Assembly (NCBI RefSeq): GCF_002786325.1
Contig: NZ_PGTB01000004.1
Coordinates: 1-64,000 of the forward strand
Length of the DNA stretch: 64,000 nt
Direction of reading: 5' to 3'
From: Pseudooceanicola lipolyticus
GTDB lineage: Bacteria > Pseudomonadota > Alphaproteobacteria > Rhodobacterales > Rhodobacteraceae
Position numbers and translations under genes: made by a program
In this document: positions 9,910 through 52,811 of the stretch, piece by piece
How the letters are laid out: every line of letters begins with the position of its first letter
Numbering within the stretch: the first letter of the stretch is position 1
The notes under the pieces: model-generated
What the model was told of the DNA's origin: nothing
Seen by the model: only the letters and a program-made list of their open reading frames with translations
Databases searched by the model: none

Positions 9910-9910
9910 C

Positions 9911-32907: not shown

Positions 32908-32909
32908 GT

Positions 32910-34765: not shown

Positions 34766-34819
34766 GCGGATGAATACCTTGGGAGGAAAGGCCGACCTCA
34801 GCAGCGACCTGGGGTGGGA

Positions 34820-34844
34820 GGGGCACCCTGAAAGCGGATGCCCC
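34820..34844 (-). terminator. Intercistronic hairpin after the binding-protein gene
   Basis: GGGGCA and TGCCCC form a short stem eight bases beyond the solute-binding protein stop. Hairpins here often protect or partly terminate the transcript so that binding protein exceeds permease. There is no T run; the role is inferred. Confidence 0.4.
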
Positions 34845-34851
34845 GGGCGTG

Positions 34852-36429
34852 TCAGGCGCGGTCGACATTCCAGAACAGGCTGACCGAGGCCTGCAACAGG
34901 CCGGTCAGGTCCTTACGGACAGCGCCGTCTTGGAAGGTCTGGCCCAGCGGCACGGTCGGCACCTGGTCCAGCGCGCGCGCATGCGCCTTGTCGAACAGGG
35001 CCTGTGCCTCGTCTTCGGACTGGGCGGAAAGCCAGGAGGCGACGGTTTCTTCCATCTCCTCGTCCTTGAACCAGCCCCACCAGCCTTTTTCGCCCAGGCC
35101 ACGGGTGGTGGCATTGGTTGCCGGGTTGTCGATCGAGATCGCCGGCCAGTTGGTGTGCGCGATGCTCCAGCCGCCGTTATCGACGGGTTCTTTCGACACC
35201 CGGCGCTGGACCACGGTGCCCCAGTCGGTGTCCTGCAAATCGACATTCATGCCGATCTTGGTCAGGATATCGGCGGTGATCAGCCCGTGGGGGTGGATCG
35301 AGGCGATATCGGTCGGGTTCAGGATCACGACGCGTTCACCGTTATAGCCGGCGGCCTTGAGCGCCTCTTTGGCCCCTTCGATGTCGAGCGAGTTGATCAG
35401 TTCTTCACCCAGCTCGTTCACGCCCGGCAGGCCACAGGGGAAGGACGACAGGCATTCCTGCCGGTTGGCATCGCTGGCGGTGACGGCCTGCATATAGGGC
35501 GTCTGGTTCACGGCCTTCATCACCGCGCGCCGGATGTCGACATTGTCGAACGGCGCCTGCAGGTGGTTGAAGCGCATGACCGAGACCAGGCCAAAGGGGT
35601 CCTGGCGGAACAGGTCAACATCCGGGCTGGCTTCCATCAGCGGCGCAAGGTCAGGCAGGACCGAGGCGACCCAGTCGACCTCGCCCGCCTGGATGGCGGC
35701 GGCGGCGGTGGCGGGGTCGGGGATGACCTGCCAGATCACGCGGTCGAAGTTCACGACCTTTCCACCCGAAGTCCAGGCTGCCGGTTCCGAACGGGGCACG
35801 TAACCTTCGAACTTCTCATAGACCATGCGGTCGCCCGAGACATATTCGTCTGCCACCCATTTGAACGGGCCCGAGCCGATCATTTCGGTCACCTGCTCGG
35901 AGATATCGGTTTGCGCCAGCCGTTCCGGCATGATCATCGCCGGCGAGGAATGCGGCTTGCCGATGGCGTGCAGCAGGCGGCCGAAGGGACGGGTCAGCTT
36001 GATCAGGATGGTCTTGTCATCCTTGGCCGAAAAGCTTTCGGTCGCGGCGCCCAGCGCTTGGCCAAAGCCGTCGCGGCGGGACCAGCGATCGAGGCTTGCG
36101 GCACAGTCCTGGGCACGGACCGGTTCGCCATCGTGGAACATCAGCCCGTCGCGCAGGGTGATTTCCCAGGTCAGCCCGTCATCGGACACGGTATGACCCG
36201 CCGCCATCTGCGGGACCGGCTGCAAGTTCGCATCCATGCCATACAGCGTGTCGAAGACGCAGTAGCCATGCGTGATGGAGACGGCGGCAGGCGTAAAGAC
36301 CGGGTCAAGAATGGTGAGGTTGGAACTGGGCACATAGCGCAGCACCTTGGTGTTGTTCTGGGCAATCGAGGGCAGCGACAACAGCGGCGTCGCCGCCGCG
36401 GCGCCGAGCAGGGAACGTCTTGTGATCAT
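34852..36429 (-). CDS. ABC transporter solute-binding protein, family 5
   Basis: The 525-residue protein starts with MITRRSLLGAAAATPLLS, a twin-arginine-like signal (RRSLLG), cut near residue 24. The mature protein has the extracellular solute-binding family 5 layout (LRYVPSSNLTILDPVF, WEITLRDGLMFHDGEPV, ADILTKIGMNVDLQDTDW). Such proteins bind peptides, opines, or other compounds in the periplasm and feed DppBCDF-type permeases. Its place after an M81 peptidase and co-regulation with a PLP lyase suggest a modified peptide or amino-acid conjugate. The ligand is unknown. Confidence 0.85.
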   Translation of the reverse strand: MITRRSLLGAAAATPLLSLPSIAQNNTKVLRYVPSSNLTILDPVFTPAAVSITHGYCVFDTLYGMDANLQPVPQMAAGHTVSDDGLTWEITLRDGLMFHDGEPVRAQDCAASLDRWSRRDGFGQALGAATESFSAKDDKTILIKLTRPFGRLLHAIGKPHSSPAMIMPERLAQTDISEQVTEMIGSGPFKWVADEYVSGDRMVYEKFEGYVPRSEPAAWTSGGKVVNFDRVIWQVIPDPATAAAAIQAGEVDWVASVLPDLAPLMEASPDVDLFRQDPFGLVSVMRFNHLQAPFDNVDIRRAVMKAVNQTPYMQAVTASDANRQECLSSFPCGLPGVNELGEELINSLDIEGAKEALKAAGYNGERVVILNPTDIASIHPHGLITADILTKIGMNVDLQDTDWGTVVQRRVSKEPVDNGGWSIAHTNWPAISIDNPATNATTRGLGEKGWWGWFKDEEMEETVASWLSAQSEDEAQALFDKAHARALDQVPTVPLGQTFQDGAVRKDLTGLLQASVSLFWNVDRA

Positions 36430-36474
36430 TTTGTTTTCCTTCCTGAAGGTCTTACGTTTCGTTGTTTTTTGTTT

Positions 36475-37971
36475 CTATGCCACGCGCGGGATCGGCTGCG
36501 GTTCGGCGGTATCGTCTGCCGGCCAGAACGGTCTCTGCCGGTTTTCCCACGCCACGTCCTGAAGCCGCAGCGGCGCGCCGCCGGGGCCGTGCAGCGGGAT
36601 GTACTGAACACCGGGGCCCAGCAGCTTGCGGTAATTCATCAGGTTCTTGAAGGAGGATATTTTCATCTCGGCAATGTCGATGCCGCAGGCTGCGTAATGT
36701 TCATCCATGTGCTCGTAAAAGGGCAAGCTGCCGACGAGAATCCGGATGCCGCCCGCGCGCAACAGCGCGGTCTGACCGGTGCCGGTTTTCGCACCGGCGG
36801 CCGGGCCGCCGGAATAGGTGAAGGTCCCGTCGCACAGCTTTTCCACCTGTGCGGTGACCGGGACGGGCTTGAACCAGCGGTCATCCTGTTTCGCGCCGAT
36901 GTGGAAGTCTGACTCGGCACCTTCGCCCAGGTCAAAGGCCCGCGCCGCGGTGTCGGGATCGACGATATAGAGGGCGGCGTCAGTGTCAGGTGCGATTTCA
37001 AGCAGCGCGGCCAGAAGCGCCGGGCTGTCACCCTGTGCGCCGGCGCCCATCGAGTCGGGGGCGTCGACGATCAGGGTGCGGCCCGGCGCCGCGACCGCCG
37101 CGCGCACCGCCTCGGCCGGGGTCATTGCCGGCAGTTCGAAAAGACGGCGGCGCTCCCAGATGGCGTCCAGCACCTCCTGCGCAACCGCGTCGCCGGCGGC
37201 GGGGTCGCCGTCGGTGATGGCAAGCCCGGTGACGCCCACATCCGCCATGTCGAGCCAGGGTTGGACGGGAAAAAAACTTACCGACAGCGCCCGCCCCTCG
37301 GCCTCGATCTGACGGGACAGGGCGGCGACCTGCGCCATCGGTTCGTCGCCCAGCGTCGCGCCACCCAGAACGGGGACAATGGCGTTATACTTGCGGATGC
37401 GCGTCACCGGCGCGATTTCTTTCCTCATCGCGCGGACCAGCAGGTCAGCAGCACAGGCGCCGGTGCGATAGGCATCGACATGCGGGTAGGTCTCGTATCC
37501 GACGATGATCTGGGCCATGTCGGCCATCCGTTGCGTGACATGCGCGTGCAGGTCGAGGCTGACCGCGATCGGAATTGACGGGTCGCCAAGCCGTTGCCGC
37601 ACCGCCTGGATAACGCCGCCCTCGGGGTCTTTTTCGGTCGCGCAGATCATCGCGCCGTGCAGCGAGAGGTAAACACCATCAAGCGGCAGCGCCGCGGTAA
37701 TTCCCTCTGCGATGATCTCGATCACCTCGTCGTAAAAGGCGTCGTCCACATGTCCGCCCGAGACGCAGCGTGACATGAAGAGCGGCAAAACCTGAACCCC
37801 GGCGTCATTCAGCGTGTCGAGCGCGCCGGTCACCGAGAGCTGTTTGCCGGTTGCCACCTTGATGACATCCTCGCCGTGATAGATGCCGAACCGGGCGAAA
37901 TCTTCTTTTCGGGCCACGCGGAGCGACAGGCTGTTGCCTTCGAATTCAAAGCTGGCGATCGCGACTCTCAT
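36475..37971 (-). CDS. M81 family (MlrC-like) metallopeptidase
   Basis: The 498-residue product begins MRVAIASFEFEGNSLS; I chose the ATG at 37971, where conserved family sequence starts, over one 11 codons earlier at 38004 (GAGG is close to that one, so it is not excluded). M81/MlrC proteins are zinc enzymes; expected ligands are seen in LPLDGVYLSLHGAM, VSLDLHAHVT and YETYPHVDAYRTG. The C-terminal MlrC domain follows from about residue 290. MlrC in Sphingomonads cleaves linearised microcystin, but most homologues act on unknown compounds. It is the first gene of the peptidase-ABC operon and has the LysR-type box upstream. No signal peptide, so it acts after uptake. Confidence 0.8.
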   Translation of the reverse strand: MRVAIASFEFEGNSLSLRVARKEDFARFGIYHGEDVIKVATGKQLSVTGALDTLNDAGVQVLPLFMSRCVSGGHVDDAFYDEVIEIIAEGITAALPLDGVYLSLHGAMICATEKDPEGGVIQAVRQRLGDPSIPIAVSLDLHAHVTQRMADMAQIIVGYETYPHVDAYRTGACAADLLVRAMRKEIAPVTRIRKYNAIVPVLGGATLGDEPMAQVAALSRQIEAEGRALSVSFFPVQPWLDMADVGVTGLAITDGDPAAGDAVAQEVLDAIWERRRLFELPAMTPAEAVRAAVAAPGRTLIVDAPDSMGAGAQGDSPALLAALLEIAPDTDAALYIVDPDTAARAFDLGEGAESDFHIGAKQDDRWFKPVPVTAQVEKLCDGTFTYSGGPAAGAKTGTGQTALLRAGGIRILVGSLPFYEHMDEHYAACGIDIAEMKISSFKNLMNYRKLLGPGVQYIPLHGPGGAPLRLQDVAWENRQRPFWPADDTAEPQPIPRVA

Positions 37972-38389
37972 TGCAGTATTGGGTTCCTCTAATCGTCTGG
38001 CCATGCCTCGGTTCCGTCACAAAAATGGTCGAGGCAGGTTCTGAACGTATGCACCTAACGAGAAATCTTGCAGCAACATGCACTGAATTCAAATGCGAAT
38101 TGAAGGGATCAATATGCAGGTGTTGCATATTGCCCGGATAACTGGACCGCAGGAGAAAACGTCGGCAACATTTGCGCGGCACGCGGTGCGCCGCTCGAAC
38201 CCGCCGGCACAACGCCGCCCGAGGCGGCTGCGATCGCCGGGCTTTTACGGAGATTTTGCCGGATGACCAACCCCTTGGCTGACCTCTAACAATTGGCCCG
38301 CTGGTTCTGCGAGATTGCCTGCGCGCGCTGTGTGTCATGAAAGCAGTCCGCCTGTCGGTTTTCCGGTTCGCATTGGTCCGCCGGCACCG
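37972..38389. other. Intergenic region holding the M81-ABC operon promoter
   Basis: About 420 bases separate the M81 gene from the end of the GMC gene. The part near 38111-38131 carries the LTTR box. The sequence from about 38030 to 38150 is A+T-richer than the genes, as expected for a promoter. I see no gene in the remainder. Confidence 0.5.
38111..38131. promoter_or_regulatory. LTTR box upstream of the M81-ABC operon
   Basis: AATATGCA-GGTGT-TGCATATT is a perfect 8-bp inverted repeat with a five-base centre and the T-N11-A core. It matches the box at 27581-27601 in arm sequence and spacing. It lies 140 bases before the M81 start. Confidence 0.75.
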
Positions 38390-40042
38390 TCAAAACGTCT
38401 TGAGCGTCTGGCTTCGATCAGATCGGGTGGGTGCCTTATCTTGCACCGGTCGTTTGCTCCGATCCGCGGACAGCAGGTGATCGGCCAGACGGAGGGCAAG
38501 GGCGACGATTGTCAGCGTCGGATTCACATAGCCGGCGGTGGGGAAAACGGAACTTCCCGCGACATACAGGTTGTGCACCGCGTGCATCCGGCAGTCGCTG
38601 TCGACCACGCCGGTTTGCGGGTCATGCGACATGCGGGTTGTTCCCATATGGTGTTTGCCGCCCTCCATGCTGACCGGATACCCGTCTGCATCCCTCGCGC
38701 CATGCAGGTTAAGCTGGCCGACCTTGCCATCTGCAAACAGCCGGGTCAGGCCGCGTTGAAGCAGGTCGAGCCCGCGCAGGTCACTGTCGCGCAACCGCCA
38801 GTCCACCGTGACCTGCGGCATTCCGAAGCGGTCCCGCCGCGTCGGGTCGAGGCGGACCCGGCTGTCGGGGTTCGGTGCGGTTTCGAGCGTGAACCGCGCG
38901 GCCAGCGTCCGGCGTTTGACGATGGCGCCCCTGACGCGTTCAAGCGCGCTGGCGCCGACCTCGCCGGGGCGCAGAAGCAGTGCCGGCAGGTGCCGTCGCA
39001 TGCGCCCGTCGGGAAGTTCGCGATGCATCAGCACATCCACCACCCGCGTGAGCGCGACGCCGCCACGCGACAGGAACCTGGGTGAAGATTTATGCGCCGC
39101 GCGCGAGACGAAGAAGACCGCCGCGCCGTTCACGCCCGTTTCCCTGCGCAGGCGCTCGCTGAGTGCAAACGCGCCGTGGCTCCGCTGTGCGATACCGGCC
39201 TGCTCATAGCCTTCCAGGGCGCCGACCGCCTCGGGACCAATGCCAGCGGCAAGGTCCAGCGAGCCACCGAAAAAGAAGGGGTGATCCATGAAGTATCGCC
39301 CGACAAGGTCATTGGCATTGCCAAGACCGTTTGCGCCGGACGCGCGTGACGCCAGCAGAAGCCGCGCGTTTTCGATGCCGCCACAGGCGAGGATGTAGGT
39401 CTTGGCACTGAACACCAGGCGGTGCCCGCCGGTGCTGCGCGCGTCGATATGAGAAACCTGTTGTCCAATGGCGACGATCTCGACGGCATGGGTGTCCAGG
39501 AACACCCGGACAGTGTCGCAGGCCTCCAGTTCCGGGCCCAAGGCCTGGGCGAAATCCACCTGTTGGCCATGCCGATAGCGCACCGGTTCGACGTCGCCAG
39601 CGTCGGGCACCGCCAATCCCGGGCAGACGGGCGGATCAAATCGCCAGTCGTCGAGATCGCAGAGCGCTGCCGCCCTGCGGTAATAGGGCTCCAGCACGCC
39701 GGGCTCGATCGGCCAGCCGGTCCCCGGCATGTTGGGCCGGGCTTCGAAATCCACCGGGTCGAACGGGCGGCATTGCCCGGCCCACCGGGTCGTGCTGCCG
39801 CCGAACATGCGAAACCGGGCCTTGCCCGGTGCAAAGCTTTCCCGCCCCACATTCCGGCCGTGGTAGAGAAACTGCGCCCGGTGGCTGAAGGTTTTCGCGC
39901 CGCCGGCCAAAACCGATACGGTTACGCCCTTGCCGATCATCTCGCGCGCGATGGCAAGCCCGGCGGCCCCTGCGCCGATGATGCAGATGTCGGTTTCGAT
40001 CCGGGCAGCGGAACCGGAGCGCGGTGGCGTTTCAATCGTCAT
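38390..40042 (-). CDS. GMC-type FAD oxidoreductase
   Basis: The 550-residue protein starts at the ATG at 40042; the longer frame upstream is a shadow of the AlkP-like gene, which it overlaps by 11 bases. The FAD-binding loop is DICIIGAGAAGLAIAREM near residue 18. Other GMC features are FGGSTTRWAGQCRPFD, YILACGGIENARLLL, HHMGTTRMSHDP and GYVNPTLTIVALALRLADHL, the last carrying the Asn of the catalytic pair. It oxidises an alcohol group of an unknown substrate, probably a sugar or glycoside. It is the last gene of the nine-gene glycan-like operon and has no signal peptide. Confidence 0.85.
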   Translation of the reverse strand: MTIETPPRSGSAARIETDICIIGAGAAGLAIAREMIGKGVTVSVLAGGAKTFSHRAQFLYHGRNVGRESFAPGKARFRMFGGSTTRWAGQCRPFDPVDFEARPNMPGTGWPIEPGVLEPYYRRAAALCDLDDWRFDPPVCPGLAVPDAGDVEPVRYRHGQQVDFAQALGPELEACDTVRVFLDTHAVEIVAIGQQVSHIDARSTGGHRLVFSAKTYILACGGIENARLLLASRASGANGLGNANDLVGRYFMDHPFFFGGSLDLAAGIGPEAVGALEGYEQAGIAQRSHGAFALSERLRRETGVNGAAVFFVSRAAHKSSPRFLSRGGVALTRVVDVLMHRELPDGRMRRHLPALLLRPGEVGASALERVRGAIVKRRTLAARFTLETAPNPDSRVRLDPTRRDRFGMPQVTVDWRLRDSDLRGLDLLQRGLTRLFADGKVGQLNLHGARDADGYPVSMEGGKHHMGTTRMSHDPQTGVVDSDCRMHAVHNLYVAGSSVFPTAGYVNPTLTIVALALRLADHLLSADRSKRPVQDKAPTRSDRSQTLKTF

Positions 40043-41552
40043 CACGTCCTCCCAGAAGTGCGGTTCCCTGCATCTGTTCGGGGATGGCGGCCCCCAGGCG
40101 CGACAGCACCGTTGGGGCCAGGTCCATGATGTCGCCGGCCGGTGCATCGCCTGCAGACAGGCCGCGACCGCAGGCAAGGTAGAACCCGCTTGACCGGTGA
40201 TTGCCGGATCTGCCGCTTGGATGACGGCCCGGTGTGGGCCAGTCGACCTTGCCGAAGCGTTCCGACACCACGGCGCGGTGACGGGCGGCGGGTGTCCCGC
40301 TCCAATCCACCAACAGATCCGGAAGCATCGGGCGGTAGGGCCCTTCGGGAACCACATCAGCGATCCGGGCCACCCGTGAGACAAGCGGTTCGCCGGTATC
40401 CGCATCGACAAAGCTGCCCAGGCCCTCGGTGATCCGTTCGGCCAGTTCCCCGGCCTGATCCTCGGACAGCAGGCCCGCGGCCTCGCGGCCGGCGATGTTC
40501 AGCCGGATATAGCCGGTCAGGTCGGCCACCTGGGTCAGCGCCGGCGTCTGCCGCCAGTCGCGGCCTCCGGTCCGCCAGAAACCGGTCAGCTTGTCCTGTG
40601 CGGCGGTGGGCAAACTGTCTTTCACCGCGTGCCGCAACGCTGGCGGCACCGCGCGGCGCAGGCGCTCCAGATATTTCAATGGCCGTTTACCTGCGCCGTT
40701 GTCGGACAGGATGCGCAGCAGCATATCATCGAGAATTTCCACCCGGCTGGTGTTCGGCCCCATGCCGTGCAGTGAAAACAGGATCACCTCGTCGGCATCC
40801 GCGGCCTCGATAATCCGGCCAAGCGCGTGATCCGTTGCGGCATAGACCTCTGGACGCGCGCGGTCGAATTCGGCGCGTTCCGAGGCCAGCGGCGGCGATT
40901 TCAGGCCGGTCTCGTCCCACAGCCAGTGGCCGCCCCGATGCAGGCCGGGAAAGGTAAGCAGGAACAGATCGGCGGTTTCCCGCGCCAGTATCTGTTCTGA
41001 AATATCGGCCAGCATTTCAGCGATACGGATTTGTTCGTCCCTCAGCTTCAGCACCGCCTGCACCGATTGCAGCGCATGCATCTCGGCCACGATGGGTGAG
41101 GCGCCGTGCCGCGCCTCGATCTCGGCAAGCAGCCCGGCAGGATGGGCATGCGGCGGTTCGAGGCTGTCGAGCGTGGCCCATCCCGTGAGTTCGATGCCGG
41201 ACCGCGGGGCGGAGGCAAAGGGCATGTCGAGCGCAATGACCTTGCCGCCGTCGGCGGTCAGGCCGCGCCAAAACGGCTCTCCCATAGCCCGGGGATCCGG
41301 CCGCCGGAGCGCCATCGCCTCGGGCGACCATTGCAGGTAATGGTGAAACCCCGTGAAGGAGGGCGGCGTCGAGGTGTAGAAGCTTGGCCAAACCGATCCC
41401 GGCAGCCATTGCCCAAGGGAAGACAGCATGCCAAGGCGGCCCTGCCTGCGAAGCTGTCCGAAGACGGGGGTCAGGCCCTCGTCGACGAGCTGGTCCAGAA
41501 GGCCGAGATCTGCCGCGTCCAGCGCGATCATGAGCAGTTTTGCGCGCCCCAT
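40032..41552 (-). CDS. AlkP-superfamily (type I phosphodiesterase fold) paralogue 1
   Basis: The 506-residue protein keeps the fold markers of nucleotide pyrophosphatase/phosphodiesterases: N-terminal metal Asp12 in LLMIALDAAD and a C-terminal ligand-like His in GNHRSSGFYLACGRG. The nucleophile segment is LPGSVWPSFYT, with Pro51 where Thr is expected from the W-x-x-F-x-T anchor. The usual D-x-x-G-H is H205-R-G-G-H209, and the usual SDHG is SLHG (Leu261, His262). So it lacks standard catalytic residues. No signal peptide, so it is cytoplasmic. Its start overlaps the stop of paralogue 2 by one base (TGATG). A pseudoenzyme or a new chemistry are both possible. Confidence 0.7.
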   Translation of the reverse strand: MGRAKLLMIALDAADLGLLDQLVDEGLTPVFGQLRRQGRLGMLSSLGQWLPGSVWPSFYTSTPPSFTGFHHYLQWSPEAMALRRPDPRAMGEPFWRGLTADGGKVIALDMPFASAPRSGIELTGWATLDSLEPPHAHPAGLLAEIEARHGASPIVAEMHALQSVQAVLKLRDEQIRIAEMLADISEQILARETADLFLLTFPGLHRGGHWLWDETGLKSPPLASERAEFDRARPEVYAATDHALGRIIEAADADEVILFSLHGMGPNTSRVEILDDMLLRILSDNGAGKRPLKYLERLRRAVPPALRHAVKDSLPTAAQDKLTGFWRTGGRDWRQTPALTQVADLTGYIRLNIAGREAAGLLSEDQAGELAERITEGLGSFVDADTGEPLVSRVARIADVVPEGPYRPMLPDLLVDWSGTPAARHRAVVSERFGKVDWPTPGRHPSGRSGNHRSSGFYLACGRGLSAGDAPAGDIMDLAPTVLSRLGAAIPEQMQGTALLGGRDDD

Positions 41553-43117
41553 CAGAGCGCCCTTGTCGGTTCAAGCAGGGCGTCGAGCGGGGCGCCGCGC
41601 AGACCGTTCGGCGCCGGCAGGCCGAAATGCGCAAACACCGTCGCGGTCAGGTCCTGGACCGATCCCTCAGCGCCACCGGTTGCGGCACCATGACCGGCAC
41701 AGAACACCCAGCCCACGGGTTGATGGTGCCCGGAGCGGCCATCGGGTGGCATGCTCTGCCAAAAGTTGCGAAACGCGCCGAACCTGGCCGACGTGATGGT
41801 GTTCAGGCTGAGCGGCGGGCTGTCGGACCACTGCACCAGGAGATCCGGCAGATCCGCACGATCCCGGATCTCTCGCCACAGGTCCGATGATCGCACAACG
41901 GCCTTGATCAACTGCGCGCCGGAGGCTGCGTCGACGAAGGTGGGCAGGCCGGTTGCAATCTGGGTGCACAGCGCCTCGAACTCTTCGCCGGGCGCAACGA
42001 TGCCCTCGCGTTCCCGGCCCCGCAGGTTGATGCGGATCTGCCCTTCGAAATCGCTTCCGACCAGGCGGAAGGCGCGCACTTTCGACCAATCCGTCGCCTC
42101 GGCGCGCCGCCAGTACCGCCCCAGGCCATCCTTGACCGCAACCGGCAGGTGTTCCTTCAGGGCGCTGCGCCATTCAAGCGGGATCGCATTGCGCAACCGA
42201 GGCAGCAGGGCGGGCGCGGGGGAAGGGGCGTCGGACGTGTCGGAGGTGTCGTTCTCCAGTACGCGCCGCAGCATTTCCGGCAACAGGAAATGTTTGGACG
42301 TGTTGGGCACCATCCCATTCAGCGAGAACAGGATCACCCGGCAATCCTTTGGAAGAGCCGCCACAACCTCGCCGATTGCCGTGTCGCAGGCGCGATAGAC
42401 TTCGGGCAAGGCCTCGGACAGGGCCGAGTCATTGCTGGGGCGCCGCAGGATGACGGGCATCTGCAGCTTGTGCCCGGCGCGGTGCACGGCTCCGAAGCCC
42501 AGCAGCAACAAATCCCACCGGGTGTTGCGGGCCAGATCGCAGGCCAGGGCGGATTGCTGACGCGCGCTGGCGACCAGCTGATCGCGCAGCTTTAACAAGC
42601 CCGCGGCGGTCTGCGGGCCGTAAATCTCGTCGCGCATCTCGGGCCGGCCGTGGCGGTTTCGCAGCTCGGCCGCCAAATCCTGCGGCCAGGTGCCGCGGCG
42701 CCCGCGCGTTGCATGTGCATTCCACGAGATCACCTCGGTGCCGCCAAAGGGTTTCGCCGAGGGCGCAAACGGGGCATCGATGGCCAGAACCCGCGGCCCG
42801 TCCGGCCCGAACTTGCGGTAAAACGGCGCGGTGTCGATCCAGTCCTGATCGTCGGGGCGCTCGTGCCGCATCGTGTCGGCGCGCCACTGAAGCACGCCGG
42901 AGATCCCGTGCTCGGGCGGTAATTTGCCCGTGTAGAAACCGGGCCAGACTGCGCCGACCATCACGTCGCTTTCCGACCGGATGCGCAGCAAATCGCCGCC
43001 ATCCAGCAGGCGGGCCAGGTTGGGCAGCCAGCCCTGCGATATCCCGCGTTCGATCATGGTGATCTCGGCCCCGTCGAAGGCAATCATTGCAAGCGGTTGA
43101 TAGGAACGGTCCGCCAT
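41552..43117 (-). CDS. AlkP-superfamily paralogue 2, most degenerate active site
   Basis: The 521-residue protein starts at the ATG at 43117, in a TGATG overlap with the SDR stop (a GTG one codon earlier is possible). Asp15 in MIAFDGAE is kept. The segment VMVGAVWPGFYTGK has no Ser or Thr between Asp51 and Thr63, so no nucleophile is available there. The metal motifs are H212-R-A-G-H216 and SLNG (Leu266, Asn267), so the DHG pair is fully lost; GHHQPVGWVFCAG keeps the late His. It is clearly homologous along its length to the genes on either side of the operon. Function unknown. Confidence 0.7.
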   Translation of the reverse strand: MADRSYQPLAMIAFDGAEITMIERGISQGWLPNLARLLDGGDLLRIRSESDVMVGAVWPGFYTGKLPPEHGISGVLQWRADTMRHERPDDQDWIDTAPFYRKFGPDGPRVLAIDAPFAPSAKPFGGTEVISWNAHATRGRRGTWPQDLAAELRNRHGRPEMRDEIYGPQTAAGLLKLRDQLVASARQQSALACDLARNTRWDLLLLGFGAVHRAGHKLQMPVILRRPSNDSALSEALPEVYRACDTAIGEVVAALPKDCRVILFSLNGMVPNTSKHFLLPEMLRRVLENDTSDTSDAPSPAPALLPRLRNAIPLEWRSALKEHLPVAVKDGLGRYWRRAEATDWSKVRAFRLVGSDFEGQIRINLRGREREGIVAPGEEFEALCTQIATGLPTFVDAASGAQLIKAVVRSSDLWREIRDRADLPDLLVQWSDSPPLSLNTITSARFGAFRNFWQSMPPDGRSGHHQPVGWVFCAGHGAATGGAEGSVQDLTATVFAHFGLPAPNGLRGAPLDALLEPTRAL

Positions 43118-44094
43118 CACACCGCCCCCTCGGCGCGCATCCAGCCCACGGTGCGCCGCACCGCCTGCAGGACATCATAGCGCGGGGCGAACCCCAGGCG
43201 TTCGGACGTCGCGGCGGTATCGTAGTGGCTGGGCCAGGCGTGGAAACCTGCAGTGAAGGCATGGGGCAGTTCCAGTCCGAACATCGAAAAGACCTGATCG
43301 CCGATCCGCTTGTAGGCCCGCAGGGGCCAGCCGCTGACCATGCGCGGCGCAAAGGCAACGCCCAGCTCGTCGGCAATGTTAGCAAAAACGTCCTTCAACG
43401 CGGCAGGGTCGCGGGCGACGAGAATATAGGTCGCGCCCGGTTCCGCCCGATCACCGGCGCACAGCTGCAGGCCGGCCACCACGTCGTCCACGTCGCAGCT
43501 ATGGATCTGCCCGCCGCGTGCAAGCAGCCGATAGCGACCATCACGCACCGCGCGAACGATTTTCTGCCAGTCCTTCGCCCCCGGTCCGGCGACCCGTTCG
43601 GCGATGCGGGCGATCCGATAGTCCAGCTGTCGGTTCCGCCAGACCTCGTGAAGCCTTTTTTCATTCAGCATCCGAGACGCCCCGTAATGCGAGGTGGGTC
43701 GCGGCTCGGAGCGCGCAGGGGTCAGGGGCGGCCGTCCCCGCATGACGGCCACCGAACTGGCCAGGACGAGGCGCGCGGTATTGTCCTGCGCGGCGCCGGC
43801 GGCGGCCTCGATCAATGCGGTGTTTTCCTTGGCAAAGTTGCGCCCGGAAAGCTTCTTGAAACCGCGGGCGGCGGCCAGGTGATAGATCACGTCGCACTGC
43901 GCGGCGGCGGATTTCATCAGGGCAGCGTCCGCGGCGTCGCCCCGCACGATCTCGATCCCTTCCGCCTCCATCTCCGAGGCGTCGTGGCTGGGCCGCAGCA
44001 AGGCGCGTACTTGCATGCCCGAGCCGCAGAGCGCGGACACCAGCCGTCGTCCGATAAAGCCACCAGCACCTGTCACCAAAACGCGGTTGTGCAT
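43117..44094 (-). CDS. Extended SDR NAD-dependent epimerase/dehydratase with YxxxR
   Basis: The 325-residue protein has the extended-SDR nucleotide loop VLVTGAGGFIGRRL at residues 5-18, the acidic tip region, VIYHLAAARGF, and the Ser of LASSVAV near 113. The catalytic pair is HYGASRMLNEK: Tyr137 is followed by Arg141 in the place of the near-invariant Lys. Arg could still hold the nicotinamide ribose, or activity may be reduced. Family members epimerise, dehydrate or reduce nucleotide sugars. It sits between AlkP-like paralogues, two bases from one and overlapping the other. Confidence 0.8.
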   Translation of the reverse strand: MHNRVLVTGAGGFIGRRLVSALCGSGMQVRALLRPSHDASEMEAEGIEIVRGDAADAALMKSAAAQCDVIYHLAAARGFKKLSGRNFAKENTALIEAAAGAAQDNTARLVLASSVAVMRGRPPLTPARSEPRPTSHYGASRMLNEKRLHEVWRNRQLDYRIARIAERVAGPGAKDWQKIVRAVRDGRYRLLARGGQIHSCDVDDVVAGLQLCAGDRAEPGATYILVARDPAALKDVFANIADELGVAFAPRMVSGWPLRAYKRIGDQVFSMFGLELPHAFTAGFHAWPSHYDTAATSERLGFAPRYDVLQAVRRTVGWMRAEGAV

Positions 44095-44096
44095 CG

Positions 44097-45680
44097 TCAG
44101 TCTTCCACCGCCGGGTCATTGGGCACCAGGCCGGGCACCGGGGTGCCGCGCATTTCCGGTCGCATTTGCTGTCCGACGAGGGTGTGAACCGTTGCCAGAA
44201 GGTCGAATTCGTGGATCTTGGGCAGCGCGCCGCGCCCCGGAATGTCGGGGCCGGCGGCAACGAACCAACCATCGCCGATATGGTGCCCGGGCCGTCCATC
44301 CACATAGCCGCCATAATCGTGATTATATACGGTGCCGTACTGTTCCGATCGGAAACCGCGGATCTGTCGCGCGCTTCTGACCGTGGTGCGCATCACCAGA
44401 TCCGGCAGCACTCGGCGTTGCACGCCCTCCGGCCAGATTTCCGAGCCGCGCGTGATGTCGCGCACCAGCGGTTCGCCGGTTTCGATATCCACGAAGCTTT
44501 CGAACCCCGCCCGGATCTTCCCAAGCAGCGCATCGTATTCGGCGCCGGGCTCTACGATGCCATCGCGCTCGCGGCCCTTGAGATTGACATGGATCAGCCC
44601 CTCGAGGTCGCCTGCAAGGGCGAAGGCCTTGGTCTTTGACCAGTCGCGCGCATCGGTGCGCCAGAACATGGTCATCGCGTCCTGCACGGCAAAAGGCAGT
44701 TTCGCCTTGATCCGCGAGCGCAGTTCCAGAGGGAGGGACTCGCGCAGGCGCGCGAAGGGGGATTTTGCAACCGTTTCCGGATCGTCCCGTTTCTCGTCCC
44801 GAGTGATCCGGTCGAGCATCCGGCTGATCATCGGGTAGACCGAGTAGTTTTCCGTCATTCCGTGCAGCGAAAAGGCGATGACGTTCACCTCCTCTCCGGC
44901 CGCGTCGATGATCTCGCCCAGCGCCTTGTCGGTTGCAATGGCGACCTGCCGCATCGCATCGTCAAGCGCCTTGCCCTCCTGTTCGCTCAATTCTCCGGTC
45001 GCGCCATAGCGGTTCCACGCCTTATGCCCGATCCGGTGGACCGAGCCAAAGGCGAGCAGCAGCAGATCCCATGCGTTTTCTTTCATCAGCAGCCTGCAGG
45101 CGCGACTGTGCCAATCGGCAGCGGCGATCAGTTCATCGCGCAATTTCAGCAGCGCCCTGGCGCTTTGGGCCCCGGCAAATTCATCGGGAATGGGCATCGG
45201 ACCAATTTCCCTTTTGATCCGTTCGATCAGCCCCAACGGGTATGCGCCGGGCGCCCCGATCTTGTCATGGGTACCCCATCCGGTCAGTTCGACCCCGTTG
45301 AACGGCTTGGGGCCATAAGTGATCGGAACATCCACGGCGATCACCCGCGGGCCGTCTTGGGGGAAATTCCGGTAGAAGGGTTCGACCGGTTGCCATTCCG
45401 GCGAAGCACGCAGAAACTTCATCAGATCGGGCCGCCACACCAGGTAGAACATCCAGCCATGCTCGGAAGGGTAGGTGCCGGTGAAGAAGGACGGCCAAGG
45501 CGTCCCGGCCATGTAATCCGCCGTCGATTCAATCGCGCCCTGCGCCCCTTTGGCGCGCAGACGCGCGAGGTTCGGCAGGTCACCGGCATCCATCCATTGC
45601 TGCATCCGATCCTCGGGCGAGGCATCGATGGCAAGCAGCATCAGTTTCTTGGGCTTCAGGGGCATTTGGCTGTGTCTCAT
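44097..45680 (-). CDS. AlkP-superfamily paralogue 3
   Basis: From the ATG at 45680 the product is 527 residues; starts at 45665 (MPLKPKK) or further upstream inside the GT2 gene are possible, and no strong Shine-Dalgarno decides it. Asp19 in LLAIDASPED is kept. The nucleophile region MAGTPWPSFFTGT has Ala58 at the expected Thr place, though Thr60 is near. Metal motifs are H215-R-I-G-H219 and SLHG (Leu272, His273), and GHHIGDGWFVAAGPD late in the chain. It is the first of the three paralogues in transcript order, five bases after the GT2 stop. No signal peptide. Confidence 0.7.
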   Translation of the reverse strand: MRHSQMPLKPKKLMLLAIDASPEDRMQQWMDAGDLPNLARLRAKGAQGAIESTADYMAGTPWPSFFTGTYPSEHGWMFYLVWRPDLMKFLRASPEWQPVEPFYRNFPQDGPRVIAVDVPITYGPKPFNGVELTGWGTHDKIGAPGAYPLGLIERIKREIGPMPIPDEFAGAQSARALLKLRDELIAAADWHSRACRLLMKENAWDLLLLAFGSVHRIGHKAWNRYGATGELSEQEGKALDDAMRQVAIATDKALGEIIDAAGEEVNVIAFSLHGMTENYSVYPMISRMLDRITRDEKRDDPETVAKSPFARLRESLPLELRSRIKAKLPFAVQDAMTMFWRTDARDWSKTKAFALAGDLEGLIHVNLKGRERDGIVEPGAEYDALLGKIRAGFESFVDIETGEPLVRDITRGSEIWPEGVQRRVLPDLVMRTTVRSARQIRGFRSEQYGTVYNHDYGGYVDGRPGHHIGDGWFVAAGPDIPGRGALPKIHEFDLLATVHTLVGQQMRPEMRGTPVPGLVPNDPAVED

Positions 45681-45684
45681 TCGT

Positions 45685-46656
45685 TCATTCAAATCGGCGT
45701 CCAGGCGATGCCGGGGTGTCTGCACCCGCGGGAGAACTGTCGATCAGCCCGCTGCGGAACCCTGCCGTCCAGGCAAAGGCGCCGATCAACAGCAACGGGC
45801 TGATGATCAGGGTCATCGGCAGCTTGGCCGGGCTCAGCCGCGCCACCCTGCCGATGATGTAGACAAGCCGCCGCAAGACGACGGCGGGCGCGAGGATGCG
45901 CATCCGTGCCAGGCGGGCCTGGCGGTCGCTCAGCAGCAGGCGCAATCGCCCCCGCGAATAGCCGAAGGTGCGGTGATGCCGGATCATGTCGGCCATCCTG
46001 CGCCGCCCGGCATGGCGCACCGCCATGCGCGGTGAAAACTGGATGCCGTCCCGCCACAGCGCCGTGGCGCGTTCGCAAAAATCGACATCCTCGCCAGTGG
46101 CAATCCCGTCGCGGTGCCGGAAGCCGCCGAGGCGGTTGAAATCTTCCTTTCGGATCGAAAGGTTGCAGGAGGGTGCCATATGCATAGGGCCGGCAGGGCG
46201 CGCGCGCGGCAGATCCGCGAACTGAAGCAGATTGTCGGCGCGCGCCACCGGATGCCAGGGAGCGAGATCCGCAACCGGACCCGCCGCAAGCCGGGCGCCG
46301 TGTTCAAGCGCATCGGCCGCGGCCTGAACCCAGTCCGGATCCGGCCTGCAATCGGCATCGATAAAGGCCAGGATGGGGCCGCGTGCGGCGTCGGCACCAA
46401 GGTTGCGCGCCGCGCCGGGCAGGTGTCCGCTGCCGCTGCGGACCACCACGACACCCTGAGACTGAGCGGCGGTCCTGATCGCGTCATCCGACCAGGCGTC
46501 GACGACGATCACCTCGAATGCGCGATCCGTCTGCTGCTCCCTCAGATCGCGCAGCAGGTGCAGCAGGGCATCGGGATGGCCCTTGCAGGGAATAATGACC
46601 GACACCTCGGGCGTGTCCGGCCGGTTCGTCGCAGGGCGGATACGCGGGTCAACCAT
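45685..46656 (-). CDS. Family 2 glycosyltransferase
   Basis: I chose the ATG at 46656 because GAGG lies six bases before it; it overlaps the flippase stop by eight bases. The 323-residue protein has VSVIIPCKGHPDALLHLL, VVDAWSDDAI, GAARNLGADAARGPILAFID with the acidic DADCRPD motif, and MAPSCNLSIRKEDF. A hydrophobic segment near the C-terminus (LPMTLIISPLLLIGAFAW) may anchor it to the inner membrane. It would add a sugar to a lipid-linked acceptor in the glycan operon. Confidence 0.85.
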   Translation of the reverse strand: MVDPRIRPATNRPDTPEVSVIIPCKGHPDALLHLLRDLREQQTDRAFEVIVVDAWSDDAIRTAAQSQGVVVVRSGSGHLPGAARNLGADAARGPILAFIDADCRPDPDWVQAAADALEHGARLAAGPVADLAPWHPVARADNLLQFADLPRARPAGPMHMAPSCNLSIRKEDFNRLGGFRHRDGIATGEDVDFCERATALWRDGIQFSPRMAVRHAGRRRMADMIRHHRTFGYSRGRLRLLLSDRQARLARMRILAPAVVLRRLVYIIGRVARLSPAKLPMTLIISPLLLIGAFAWTAGFRSGLIDSSPAGADTPASPGRRFE

Positions 46657-47962
46657 CGCCGGCCTCGGTCGTCTCGCCACTGCGGATTGCACGCAGGATC
46701 AGCACCAGCAGCGCGGTGGCCGCAAGGCATTCGGTGGCAAAGGTTGTCCAGGCCGCGCCGGGCGCGCCATAGGCCGGGATCACCACGGCATTCATCGCCG
46801 CATTGGCCAGGGCGGTCACGATCAGGATGCCCAGGCAATCCTTTTCGCGATGCAGCGCCCCGGCGAGGTTAAGACAGGCAAGGCCGATGAACAGCGGAAC
46901 GGTCGAAAGCGCCAGAATGGCAAACACATCCGCGCTCGACCGATAGTCTTCGCCCCAGACGGTGGTCACGATCGGGGCGGCCAGGGGAATGCAGATCGCG
47001 GCCAGCAGAACCCCGGCAAGGCTGACCGCGGTCAGAAGCCGGCGGGTCAGGCGCGCAAGCTCGGGCCGGTTCCGTGTCACCGCCATCGCCGCCGCGATGG
47101 GAACGAAAACCATCATCAACGGCCGGATCAGCGTGCGCGTGACTTCAAGCAAGCGATAGGATGTTCCGTATTCGGCGACGGATGTTGTTGTGGAGAGGCT
47201 GAACAGCATCAGCATGTCGATCCTGCTTTGCAGCAACAGGACGATCTCGGTGAAGAAAAAGGGCAGGGCGGCGAACAGCATCGGCCGTACGGCCACAAAC
47301 GTCCATTGCAAGCGCGGTGTGCCCAGCCGGGCCTGGGTCACCCGGATGGCGACAGCCACCATCACCGTGTTCGCAGCCACATAGAGCACCAGCACCGCCG
47401 GAAGCGACCAGCCCCATATCACCGCCAGCGACGACAGCGCGATCAGCAGCGGTCCGATGGCGCCGACGGCAAGCCGCAGACCGGTCCAGCGGAAGCCGAC
47501 GAAAATCGCCGAGAAGGAAAAGAACAGGTCACCCACCAGCATGTAGAGCGTGGTGAGCGCGCAGATCAGCAGCAGCTCCGGCTGTACCAACGCCACGACC
47601 GCATTTATGCCGAACCACAGCGCCACCGTTGCGACCACCCGCAGCGGCAGGGCCTGTCCCAGCATTGCCAGCGCCTCGCCCGGCCGTTGCGCCGACGAGC
47701 GGCGCAATTCGCGGTCGGTGCCCAGATGGCTGGCGGTGGCCGCGATTGCACCCACCACGCCGCAGAAGAAGAACTGCCCGATCAGATCCTTGTCGAAATA
47801 GCGCGCAAGCACGATGGCGGCGACGAGGCCGGGCAGCTTCTGAACCAGCTGGGCCGCGACCGAAAGCACCAGGTCGCGTTCCCATCCTGTCACGCGGGCA
47901 ATCAGCGTTTCCGCCCCGGCGCGCCCATGTGCCCGCACGCGGGTGTCAGTGGACTGCGACAC
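46649..47962 (-). CDS. Wzx-type flippase (MATE/MOP polysaccharide exporter)
   Basis: The GTG at 47962, seven bases after GGAGG, is the best start and gives 437 residues; a TTG start eight codons earlier has no such site. The protein has about twelve to fourteen hydrophobic segments and the polysaccharide biosynthesis C-terminal layout, with VLARYFDKDLIGQFFF early and VAEYGTSYRLLEV in the middle. Flippases of this kind move undecaprenyl-linked glycans or similar lipids to the periplasmic face. It overlaps the flanking GT2 genes on both sides, which ties export to the same product. Confidence 0.8.
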   Translation of the reverse strand: MSQSTDTRVRAHGRAGAETLIARVTGWERDLVLSVAAQLVQKLPGLVAAIVLARYFDKDLIGQFFFCGVVGAIAATASHLGTDRELRRSSAQRPGEALAMLGQALPLRVVATVALWFGINAVVALVQPELLLICALTTLYMLVGDLFFSFSAIFVGFRWTGLRLAVGAIGPLLIALSSLAVIWGWSLPAVLVLYVAANTVMVAVAIRVTQARLGTPRLQWTFVAVRPMLFAALPFFFTEIVLLLQSRIDMLMLFSLSTTTSVAEYGTSYRLLEVTRTLIRPLMMVFVPIAAAMAVTRNRPELARLTRRLLTAVSLAGVLLAAICIPLAAPIVTTVWGEDYRSSADVFAILALSTVPLFIGLACLNLAGALHREKDCLGILIVTALANAAMNAVVIPAYGAPGAAWTTFATECLAATALLVLILRAIRSGETTEAGDG

Positions 47963-49028
47963 GGGCAATCCTCCAATAGGCGGCAAAACTCCCGGACAGC
48001 AGCCTTACCAGCGCGCCGGAAACCCGGCCCCGGAACAGCCCGTCCGCAAAGGGCAGGGGACTGCCATGCAGAACCGCGCCGTCCCGCAGGCGCCGGTGGT
48101 GTTGCACTTGGTTGCGCATCTGTCGAAGCTCATGCCGGTTGGCGATGATCCAGGCCCAGCCCTGGGCCCATTGCGGGATCCATCCGCGTATCACCACCAG
48201 CCCCAGCGTAGCGCATTCATAGGCCAGCAAGGCCGGCGCCAGAACCAGGATCGTGCGCCAGTGGAAACAGATCGCGATTGTCAGCAGCCGGTTGCGCATC
48301 GACAGATAGGCGCGCTGTTTGGGATAGTTGCCAGCCCCCCGGAAGGACAGCCCGGTATAACCCGCGCCTCGGTCATGCAAGACGACGGCGCGCGTCGCGC
48401 AGGCGATGGTATGGCCCAGAAGGCGCATCCGCAGACCGAATTCGAGATCTTCGAAATAGAAGAAAAACGCCTCGTTGAAGCCACCCGCGGACAGGGCCGC
48501 ATCGCGATCCACCAGCAGGAAGGTGCTGATCAGCCCGTCTACCGAATGTGCGGCGCTGCCCGCGTCGCGCCGCGCATTGGCGTTGCCGAGAACCAGGGTG
48601 CCGAGGAAATGAGGATAGGCGCCGTCGCATTGGATCGTCTTGTTTTCGGGGGCAAAGACCAGACGCGGGCAGACAATCGCCGCCCCGGTCGCCTGCTGCG
48701 CCGCCAGCAACTCGTCGATGGCACCCGGCGTCACCTGGGTATCCGCATCGACAAGCAGAACGCGACGATTCCGCGCTGCTTTCATGCCCCGGTTGCGCGC
48801 GGTTGCGGGCCCGGGATTTTCCTGTAGGCGAATGATCACAAGACCTGGACATATCTGTTCCGCACCTTCAGGGCTGCCATCCTGCGAGCCGTTGTCCACC
48901 AGGATAAACTCGTCGACCAAGGGGGCGTGGTCGACCAGCGACTGGAGGCAGGACAGCAAGCGCTCGCCGCCGTTGTAGTTGATTACAACAGCGGTCAGGC
49001 CATATTCCCCGGTCTCAGCCATCCGCAT
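47946..49028 (-). CDS. Family 2 glycosyltransferase
   Basis: The ATG at 49028 gives 360 residues and overlaps the GT4 stop; a second ATG lies six bases later. Longer frames upstream are shadows of the GT4 gene. Motifs are YGLTAVVINYNGGERLL, ILVDNGSQDGS, ATARNRGMKAARNRRVLLVD with DADTQV, and GGFNEAFFFYFEDLEFGLR, a pattern of rhamnosyltransferase-like GT2 enzymes. A C-terminal hydrophobic segment (TILVLAPALLAYECATLG) suggests membrane contact. It overlaps the flippase gene by 17 bases. Confidence 0.85.
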   Translation of the reverse strand: MRMAETGEYGLTAVVINYNGGERLLSCLQSLVDHAPLVDEFILVDNGSQDGSPEGAEQICPGLVIIRLQENPGPATARNRGMKAARNRRVLLVDADTQVTPGAIDELLAAQQATGAAIVCPRLVFAPENKTIQCDGAYPHFLGTLVLGNANARRDAGSAAHSVDGLISTFLLVDRDAALSAGGFNEAFFFYFEDLEFGLRMRLLGHTIACATRAVVLHDRGAGYTGLSFRGAGNYPKQRAYLSMRNRLLTIAICFHWRTILVLAPALLAYECATLGLVVIRGWIPQWAQGWAWIIANRHELRQMRNQVQHHRRLRDGAVLHGSPLPFADGLFRGRVSGALVRLLSGSFAAYWRIARVAVH

Positions 49029-50304
49029 TGTCGCGCTCGCCGATGCCACGCGCCGCGCAGGCCTGATCATAGGCGGTATGCACCCGCTGGGCGATTGCCT
49101 CCCATGAATAGTGGTTAAACACGGTGTCACGGGCGGTCTGTCCAAGCGTATCGCCGCGGGCCCGGTCGCCCAGCAGGCGCGATATGGCCTCGGCAAAGGC
49201 CGCCACATCGCCATCGGGCACGATACAGGCATCGATGCCATCTTTCAGGTTCTTGCCCGAACTTTTGAACGACACGATCGGGCGCTCCGCAGCCATGTAA
49301 TTGAGCAGCTTGAGCGGATAGCCCGGACATTCGATCCTGGGATTCACCAGTACGTCGGCGGTGCAGAGCTCGTGCGCAAGTTCGGCGCGGTCTGCATCGA
49401 CCGCGGTGACCCGGTCGCCGATGCCCCGCGCGCGCGCCTGCTCCAGCACCGCCTCGTGCGGCTGGGGGATCACCAGGACCAGGCGGGCATGTGCATGTGT
49501 TTCTGCCACCCGGGCGAAGGCGTCGAGCAGCAGATCGATGCCCTGATAGGCGGCGAGGTTCCCGGCATAGACCACGCGTCCCGCAATTACCGCCCCCGTC
49601 TGCCGGCGGAACCAATCTATCGCAGCCTCTTCGAGGCCGTTGCCGACAATCGTCATCGGGGCCGCGACCTTCGTGGCCGCCAGCTTGTCGTGAATTTCCT
49701 CTGTCACCGGAATGATATGATCGGCCCGCTTCGGAAGCACCCGGTCCAGCAAACTGCCAAACCGGTTCAGCGTCCCTTCGAAGATCGGCGCGGCATAATA
49801 GGAAAGCTCGTCGCCCAGAAGTGTATGCGCATCATAGACAATCGAGACCGGCCGGAACCGGCGCACGGCAAGCCCGACGAGAAGCGCTTCGTAATGGTGA
49901 CAATGAAGCAGTCGGATATTGTGCTTGCGCACCACCTTCAGGGTCTTGGCGAACAGCAAGGGGTTCAGCAGCAGCATCTTCCCGAGCCCGGGGCCGGGCG
50001 CCGGATCCCAGGTACCGGGCACGTTGGCAATCCGGTGCAGCTTGTAGGCGGGGCCTGCATCGGGGTTGTCGGAGAACGGAGCACCGTCGTTTTCACCGCT
50101 ATAGTGATAGGCCACGACATGAACCTCGCGGCCCGATCTGGCAATGGTCTCTGCCAGTCTCTCGATGCGGATGGGCGTGCCGCGCCGGCAGGGAAACGGA
50201 CAGGCCGCAACCATCAGCACCGGTTCCATCGGGCGACAGACGGGTTCCGAGGCGGGCGACGCGGTCGCCGCTAGGTTTGAATGTTCAACTGGTAAGCCAC
50301 CCAT
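49015..50304 (-). CDS. Family 4 glycosyltransferase
   Basis: The 429-residue protein is first in the nine-gene operon. It has a GT-B fold: the N-terminal domain begins VLMVAACPFPCRRGTPIRIE and contains LLHCHHYEALLVGLA and YDAHTLLGDEL; the C-terminal domain has TIVGNGLEE, VVYAGNLAAYQGIDLLLDAF and RIECPGYPLKLLNYMAAERP, where the usual second Glu of the E-x7-E pair is Asn. The start at 50304 is uncertain; an ATG 25 codons later (MEPVLMVAAC) fits the domain better. It would transfer an activated sugar in the cytoplasm. Confidence 0.8.
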   Translation of the reverse strand: MGGLPVEHSNLAATASPASEPVCRPMEPVLMVAACPFPCRRGTPIRIERLAETIARSGREVHVVAYHYSGENDGAPFSDNPDAGPAYKLHRIANVPGTWDPAPGPGLGKMLLLNPLLFAKTLKVVRKHNIRLLHCHHYEALLVGLAVRRFRPVSIVYDAHTLLGDELSYYAAPIFEGTLNRFGSLLDRVLPKRADHIIPVTEEIHDKLAATKVAAPMTIVGNGLEEAAIDWFRRQTGAVIAGRVVYAGNLAAYQGIDLLLDAFARVAETHAHARLVLVIPQPHEAVLEQARARGIGDRVTAVDADRAELAHELCTADVLVNPRIECPGYPLKLLNYMAAERPIVSFKSSGKNLKDGIDACIVPDGDVAAFAEAISRLLGDRARGDTLGQTARDTVFNHYSWEAIAQRVHTAYDQACAARGIGERDNADG

Positions 50305-51646: not shown

Positions 51647-51667
51647 GATTGATCCTTTCTTGGGGCT

Positions 51668-52441: not shown

Positions 52442-52682
52442 GGGTCTGTCCAGCTTGTTCGTTTGCCCCGGAGCGGGCCTAGGCAGAAGTCTTATCTCAA
52501 AGCGTTCGAGTTTCATAACAAAAAGTGTGATACGAAATTCGAAATAGTGTGAGAATATCGGGATAGAACAGCTGTCGGCCTGTTTGACTTGATCCTGGAG
52601 CGATGCTTGTTCTTCTGACGGGCTGCCTCTAATAGCCGGTAATATATACAGAAAACTTCAATTTTTCTAAGTTTTACGATGC

Positions 52683-52695
52683 ATATGCAGCATAT
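52683..52695. promoter_or_regulatory. Short palindrome ATATGC-A-GCATAT
   Basis: Six-base perfect arms around one A, 117 bases before the binding-protein start. It shares ATGC elements with the LysR-type boxes but has different spacing, so it is probably a separate site. Confidence 0.45.
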
Positions 52696-52706
52696 TTTCC
52701 GCAGCG

Positions 52707-52756
52707 CAGAGATAACAAAATCATTGCTATATATACTAGTAAAAGTGTTATCTGTG
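52707..52756. promoter_or_regulatory. Inverted repeat flanking the putative promoter, likely DeoR operators
   Basis: CAGAGATAACA (52707-52717) and TGTTATCTGTG (52746-52756) are inverted with 10 of 11 matches and enclose 28 bases containing TATATATACTA. Paired operators around a promoter are common for DeoR repressors. The assignment is inferred. Confidence 0.55.
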
Positions 52757-52811
52757 CGGGTCGGGGGTCCGAATCAAACAGGGCAACCGCGCAGCGGAGG
52801 AGGAAAACCAA

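Follow-up and report, generated by a model that had tools for sequence, protein, structure and literature searches.

The window analysed here is a 64,000-nucleotide stretch of the Pseudooceanicola lipolyticus genome (contig NZ_PGTB01000004.1, positions 1 to 64,000), in which we found three paralogous genes, P1, P2 and P3, whose products belong to the alkaline phosphatase (AlkP) superfamily and have exchanged several of its standard catalytic residues for others. Our confidence that this residue pattern is real is very high. Based upon sequence, we favour, with a probability of roughly 0.55, the reading that P1-P3 are metal-dependent enzymes of an uncharacterised AlkP branch with a non-canonical chemistry built upon one metal and three histidines. 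The genes are open minus-strand reading frames spanning 40032-45725 overall, and their products share 35-39% pairwise identity. Residue numbers (34, 73, 132, 150, 230, 234, 287, 478 and 482) are those of P3 and are used as alignment columns; proteins with His at column 230 are termed H-type.

40032..41552, minus strand: P1, H-type AlkP-fold protein of 506 amino acids (PF01663, 41.4 bits)
P1 landmarks, minus strand: nucleophile-column Pro, 41400-41402; HRGGH, 40926-40940; Leu of SLHG, 40770-40772; late His, 40197-40199
41552..43120, minus strand: P2, H-type AlkP-fold protein of 522 amino acids (PF01663, 58.0 bits)
P2 landmarks, minus strand: nucleophile-column Val, 42956-42958; HRAGH, 42470-42484; Leu of SLNG, 42320-42322; late His, 41723-41725
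44097..45725, minus strand: P3, H-type AlkP-fold protein of 542 amino acids from a GTG, or starting at the in-frame ATG at 45680 (PF01663, 60.5 bits)
P3 landmarks, N-terminal part, minus strand: Asp34, 45624-45626; Ala73, 45507-45509; Asp132, 45330-45332; HRIGH, 45024-45038
P3 landmarks, C-terminal part, minus strand: Leu287, 44865-44867; Arg478, 44292-44294; His482, 44280-44282

An earlier note on this DNA, made from the letters alone, had ended the region at 45680, the in-frame ATG of P3; the GTG start lies at 45725. It described three AlkP-superfamily paralogues without the standard catalytic residues, and all three proteins indeed score above the PF01663 cut-off of 23 bits. Its motif readings also stood: the metal motif DxxGH is HRGGH, HRAGH and HRIGH in P1, P2 and P3, respectively, and SDHG is SLHG, SLNG and SLHG. 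The nucleophile column, which precedes the Thr of the W-x-x-F-x-T anchor by nine residues, holds Pro, Val and Ala, a placement supported by hhalign with canonical relatives, so that P1-P3 lack the Ser or Thr nucleophile of the type I phosphodiesterases and nucleotide pyrophosphatases/phosphodiesterases (NPPs). The further claim that P2 has no Ser or Thr in this segment holds from the nucleophile column to the Thr anchor, but not just upstream, where Ser residues are present. As claimed, the N-terminal metal Asp (Asp34) and the late His (His482) are kept in all three, as is His234; the metal Asp at 230 is His and the SDHG Asp is Leu.

We take columns 230, 234 and 482 to be the Zn1-type site and the remaining canonical ligands to be the Zn2-type site. 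The Zn1-type set of Asp, His and His is thus His, His and His in P1-P3. At the Zn2-type site Asp34 is present, the nucleophile and the SDHG Asp are gone, and the SDHG His is His in P1 and P3 and Asn in P2. A combination of a Ser/Thr nucleophile and a full ligand set in all three proteins was not found in their sequences. Excerpts from a study of NPP3 (PMC6052110) name D168, T206, D326, H330, D373, H374 and H483 as the residues holding its zinc ions and call them strictly conserved in NPPs and alkaline phosphatases. Counting in that order, positions one, four and seven are unchanged in P1-P3, position three is His, and positions two and five are lost. For the E. coli alkaline phosphatase, an excerpt of PMC4438272 places the N-terminal Asp (D51) on the nucleophile-side zinc.

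Columns were mapped by aligning a profile of 21 relatives (A2) with one of five canonical haloarchaeal relatives (A5) using hhalign. The two aligned end-to-end over 474 columns (E 2.4e-59), pairing Asp34 with Asp, Ala73 with the Thr of PPWTGSAW, His230 and His234 with the Asp and His of DxxxH, Leu287-His288 with the Asp-His of SDHG, and His482 with the late His. HMMER comparison with phosphonoacetate hydrolase (PhnA) set the Thr of its SFTNPNN (Ala in chain 3t02) on the same nucleophile column. Two alignments differ from this mapping, and at the nucleophile only: with PhnA-like rows, hhalign leaves a gap over the nucleophile stretch, though H230 and H234 still pair with D and H, and in the HMMER alignment to the Xac NPP chain the Thr of that chain falls on column 76. 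That column is Pro, Val and Val in P3, P2 and P1, so there is no Ser or Thr there either. A single-sequence search of the PDB yielded PhnA alone, at E 0.74, and the profile search did better. The NCBIfam cut-offs for PhnA (TIGR02335, 407.55) and for the cofactor-independent phosphoglycerate mutase (330.65) were not reached, P2 and P3 scoring 16.4 and 11.7 bits against the former (P1 unlisted) and P1 10 bits against the latter (P2 and P3 unlisted).

To judge how widely the pattern occurs, genomes were drawn at the level of the class (289 genomes, 38 with matches at E up to 0.001 and 16 above 120 bits, the window's included), from the phylum of a Gemmatimonadota metagenome-assembled genome (MAG) (249 genomes, 23 at E up to 1e-20) and in other draws. 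After removal of near-duplicates and of matches under 400 profile positions, 96 near-full-length rows were retained, P1-P3 included. Column 230 sets the classes: His in 74 rows (H-type), Asp in 21 and Gly in one. All seven canonical catalytic residues are present in each of the 21 Asp rows. Among H-type rows, H234 and H482 are each found in 73/74, the three His (230, 234, 482) together in 72/74, and Asp34 in 67/74, with Glu instead in four. The SDHG Asp survives in one row and the SDHG His in 45, while Ser or Thr occupies the nucleophile column in 14/74. Three residues are newly fixed: D132 (71/74) and W150 (69/74), each 0/21 in the Asp class, and R478 (71/74 versus 0/21, four Asp rows being gapped there). 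R379 occurs in 69 H-type and three Asp-class rows, and D34, D132, H230, H234, R478 and H482 co-occur in 60 of the 74.

A single branch (SH-aLRT 100) separates the H-type from the Asp class, also with 13 active-site columns blanked, in trees from quick searches that left out the Gly230 row (L142_8804). With high confidence, H-type sequences thus appear to form a distinct lineage among the rows sampled, in agreement with the distinct subfamily proposed earlier. Since the pattern is fixed in orthologues and in the 74-row class, it is not a chance event; loss in a single genome, considered separately, was ruled out by orthologues carrying the same residues. The near-invariance of the His that replaces the metal Asp makes this half of the site look rebuilt rather than lost.

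Several individual members of the wider family are recorded here. The rows with Glu for Asp34 come from loci L154, L134, L045 and L047. Near an H-type gene at L142, the AlkP relative at 8804-10369 may be a true pseudoenzyme, since columns 230 and 34 are Gly and Thr and the nucleophile column is Ala. One genome, recorded as a Deltaproteobacteria MAG (G939; L163/L089, L115, L120-L122), lends itself to a within-genome comparison, with one H-type protein beside four canonical PF01663 relatives. PF01663 relatives in the window's own genome were considered as internal controls and left unused, SDHG being present only in L004 and the L005/L006 reading frame and the nucleophile pattern not being found.

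Orthologous operons with three AlkP genes exist in Tropicimonas marinistellae (L083), Tropicimonas sediminicola (L087) and a Paracoccaceae MAG (L084), so that the triplicate reported in the earlier note is kept in four genomes. Identities to the window are 68-71% for P3, 63-64% for P2 and 59-69% for P1. HRxGH occurs in 12/12 proteins of the four operons; the nucleophile column is Pro in 4/4 P1, Val in 4/4 P2, and Ala (three) or Val (one) in P3. Over 18 orthologue pairs dN/dS is 0.14-0.35 (dS 0.7-1.5), and the triad is under purifying selection. At E up to 1e-10, each of the four other triad genomes (G934, G935, G936 and G938), the Gemmatimonadota MAG included, has exactly three matches, none of them outside the triad locus; the window's own genome likewise holds three. 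One genome scan gave 12 loci with relatives.

The distribution of the triad is sporadic. In the window's family, 2/295 drawn genomes were positive, its own and G765, whose contig coordinates coincide with those of the Paracoccaceae MAG. A Pseudomonadota draw, with three candidates scored per genome, gave 2/398 at E up to 1e-30, namely the window's own and one with a canonical protein (G341). In the class of a Desulfuromonadales MAG that has one copy (L086), that genome alone was positive among 195, and close relatives of P1-P3 were not found on viral contigs. The Gemmatimonadota MAG (L085) also has three copies, for which the tree does not support strict one-to-one orthology with P1-P3: L085_7863 falls in the P2+P3 clade (100/99) without a settled position inside it, and the other two share an unresolved fork with P1 and L086. 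Copies were therefore gained or lost separately, and one may speculate that the three-copy state arose more than once. Another alphaproteobacterium (L059; G288 contig C12, 20612-26204) has three H-type genes close together, with no match to family 2 or family 4 glycosyltransferases in the stretch.

The genes surrounding P1-P3, which overlap or nearly abut one another, are as follows.

38390..40042, minus strand: GMC-family FAD sugar oxidase/dehydrogenase-like gene (PF05199, E 3e-26, scored on a longer reading frame to 40411)
43117..44094, minus strand: short-chain dehydrogenase/reductase (SDR; NAD-dependent epimerase/dehydratase) between P3 and P2 (PF01370, E 3.1e-21)
45685..46692, minus strand: family 2 glycosyltransferase (PF00535, E 3e-22)
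46649..47986, minus strand: Wzx-like polysaccharide flippase (PF01943, 28.0 bits, slightly below the cut-off of 28.2; NCBIfam Wzx_EPS, 60.3 bits, below the cut-off of 800)
47946..49241, minus strand: family 2 glycosyltransferase (PF00535, E 1.2e-25)
49015..50304, minus strand: family 4 glycosyltransferase that opens the gene run (PF13692, E 2.1e-24)

The ATG of the GMC gene (40042) overlaps the end of P1, and the best solved chains for its product are glucose and fructose dehydrogenases, followed by pyranose oxidases. Wzx, glycosyltransferase, SDR and GMC genes recur beside the triad, with SDR homologues in L083, L084, L085 and L087; the family 4 glycosyltransferase was not seen in the L087 stretch. 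The setting described earlier as a glycan operon is therefore shared by the orthologues. Directly downstream of this operon (30932-38004) are oligopeptide-type ABC transporter genes and an M81/MlrC metallopeptidase gene, and upstream (50870-54218) are genes for a DeoC/LacD-type aldolase, a DeoR regulator and a solute-binding protein.

The search for further members proposed earlier brought the H-type rows to 74, P1-P3 included, and their neighbourhoods show recurring glycosyltransferase and GMC genes. Neighbouring genes were called by a simple custom script. Among 112 immediate neighbours, at loci other than the window, L083, L084, L085 and L087, were 14 family 2 (PF00535) and nine family 1/4 (PF00534) glycosyltransferases, eight GMC proteins (PF05199) and three asparagine synthases. 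A GMC gene is present in 16/60 H-type stretches (748 kb) versus 0/13 Asp-class stretches (172 kb), the stretches not all being from different genomes; L048, L163 and L165 (the same places as L088, L089 and L086) and the partial gene L090 were left out. The orthologous triad operons account for four of the 16, and a single Gemmatimonadota clade of the tree for eight. From 52 PF05199 matches in 14 genomes (about 61 Mb) we would expect 0.6 in 748 kb, the stretches being counted with a custom model and the background with PF05199; this rate is if anything overstated, because 13 of the 14 genomes carry an AlkP-GMC pair. The glycosyltransferase counts for stretches used the window's own genes as queries and missed annotated archaeal ones (L080, L081), and that control was not relied on. 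H-type genes at L045, L047 and L077 lie near asparagine-synthase-like genes, and those of L077 (Planktothrix) include neighbours annotated as L-aspartate oxidase and phytanoyl-CoA dioxygenase; the setting of these three is possibly a small-molecule pathway.

We propose that P1-P3 have a one-metal centre derived from a two-metal centre for phosphoryl transfer. Three His (H230, H234, H482) would hold the metal at the Zn1-type position in place of Asp, His and His, and the proteins, with the Zn2-type position and the nucleophile gone, would work without a phospho-enzyme in glycan assembly. Asp34, together with the newly fixed Asp132 and Arg478, may act as base and substrate anchor, either for a water bound to the metal or for a carbonyl that the metal polarises. 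The proteins would probably modify, ahead of export by Wzx, a sugar that is nucleotide-activated or lipid-linked and that in some loci is also a substrate of a GMC sugar oxidase. The GMC and SDR neighbours hint at oxidised sugars, and the glycosyltransferase and Wzx genes at a glycan linked to a lipid or a nucleotide. With their differing pocket residues (Pro, Val, Ala), the paralogues might divide three substrates or three steps among themselves, or might combine in one complex. We infer metal binding, activity, cytosolic place, reaction, substrate and division of labour from these patterns, and the presumed pocket geometry follows from homology.

The earlier note had left the choice between pseudoenzymes and new chemistry. 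That choice remains the right one, and the evidence tips it toward new chemistry, because the three His positions are near-invariant while the nucleophile and SDHG Asp, with the rest of the other half-site, drift, and because Asp132, Arg478 and Trp150 have become fixed. As to location, 72/74 H-type rows have a possible start codon 6-20 residues ahead of Asp34, a weak test since any ATG, GTG or TTG near the first strand was accepted, and a strongly hydrophobic core window is present in 3/74; this suggests that the H-type proteins are cytosolic.

Besides the weakness of that start test, several points weigh against a one-metal, three-His enzyme acting in glycan assembly. The three His could hold a purely structural metal. 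An acidic residue at 228, present in 53/74 H-type rows, is missing from P1-P3, and the cyanobacterial members L077 and L078 retain Thr at the nucleophile column, L077 also lacking Asp34. No GMC gene accompanies 44 of the 60 H-type stretches, and SDR genes are not enriched (7/60 versus 2/13 in the Asp class). Intermediate forms may be under-sampled with the H-type seeds used, the Asp control class is a small fringe sample, and the searches scored few candidates per genome.

A more specific proposal, which we offer tentatively, is that the H-type proteins, as a widespread branch, have left phosphoryl transfer altogether: a mononuclear three-His metal, with Asp34/Asp132 and Arg478, might support carbonyl-type chemistry, be it isomerisation, elimination, aldol cleavage or hydrolysis, on keto sugars made by partner GMC oxidases. 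The three enzymes would then act one after another, or joined in a complex, within one cytosolic glycan pathway.

Alternatively, phosphoryl transfer may persist by a changed mechanism, with one metal and direct attack by water or a substrate hydroxyl, or with a nucleophile displaced to column 75, a glycan-precursor phosphate being cleaved or transferred. The half of the site retained in the H-type is presumably the phosphate-binding half. Such a division has a parallel in NPP3, where, in the excerpts of PMC6052110, activation of the Thr falls to one zinc and phosphate binding to the other. Column 75 is Ser or Thr in 35/74 H-type rows, being Ser in P1, Thr in P3 and Thr in three P2 orthologues, and L077 and L078 have their Thr at 73. 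However, 31/74 rows, the window's P2 among them, have no Ser or Thr at either column, and the SDHG Asp is missing in 73/74, which leaves this explanation rather unlikely.

It is also unlikely that the three are pseudoenzymes, i.e. AlkP-fold subunits without catalytic activity that serve the glycosyltransferases, the SDR or the GMC oxidoreductase as scaffolds or regulators. The nucleophile and the second metal site are lost in P1-P3 and in most of the class, and three coexisting paralogues whose genes overlap or abut could be subunits of one complex. A dead pocket should nevertheless drift, whereas H234 and H482 are each kept in 73/74 rows in which the metal Asp has turned to His, and the class has acquired three fixed residues. 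Finally, misalignment or a local sequence oddity that hides ordinary catalytic residues elsewhere in P1-P3 is very improbable: the PF01663 scores are modest and two alignments place the nucleophile column differently, but the profiles align end-to-end with canonical relatives, orthologues in named organisms have the same residues, and neither column 73 nor 76 offers a Ser or Thr.

The seven metal and nucleophile residues define the chemistry of NPPs and alkaline phosphatases. A lineage that lacks the nucleophile and the SDHG Asp, has a near-invariant His swap and fixes new residues would, if our reading is true, represent this fold reprogrammed for another chemistry, and the recurring GMC, SDR and glycosyltransferase genes point to concrete candidate substrates. 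Database records name the Planktothrix and Nostoc H-type members 'alkaline phosphatase family protein', a function that the H-type sequences do not support. We found no description of the class in the literature searched, which lay outside subscription journals and preprints.

Among known systems, the type I phosphodiesterases/NPPs (PF01663) resemble P1-P3 in family assignment by Pfam and profile, the N-terminal Asp, the x-x-x-x-H spacing and the late His; they differ in their Thr/Ser nucleophile, SDHG Asp and DxxxH Asp, all replaced in the H-type, which in turn has Asp132, Arg478 and Trp150 fixed. EboF of the ebo operon is, according to excerpts of PMC5133447, likewise a separate lineage within PF01663, with eukaryotic members that lack targeting sequences; unlike the H-type, which is set beside it by description alone, it is presented there as putatively hydrolysing a substrate that contains phosphate. 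PhnA aligns with P1-P3 over its N-terminal half (3t02/3szy; hhalign probability 96.6 with PhnA-like rows), whereas its Thr, DxxxH and DHG are invariant in the ten rows taken for PhnA by motifs. The canonical haloarchaeal 'alkaline phosphatase family proteins' (L079-L082) are full-length homologues, some near flippase or glycosyltransferase genes, but they possess Thr, DxxxH and SDHG and belong to the 21-row class. Sulfatases and phosphonate monoester hydrolases are one-metal AlkP members that keep the Zn2-type site with a formylglycine or Thr nucleophile; the H-type proteins appear to have kept the opposite half of the metal site.

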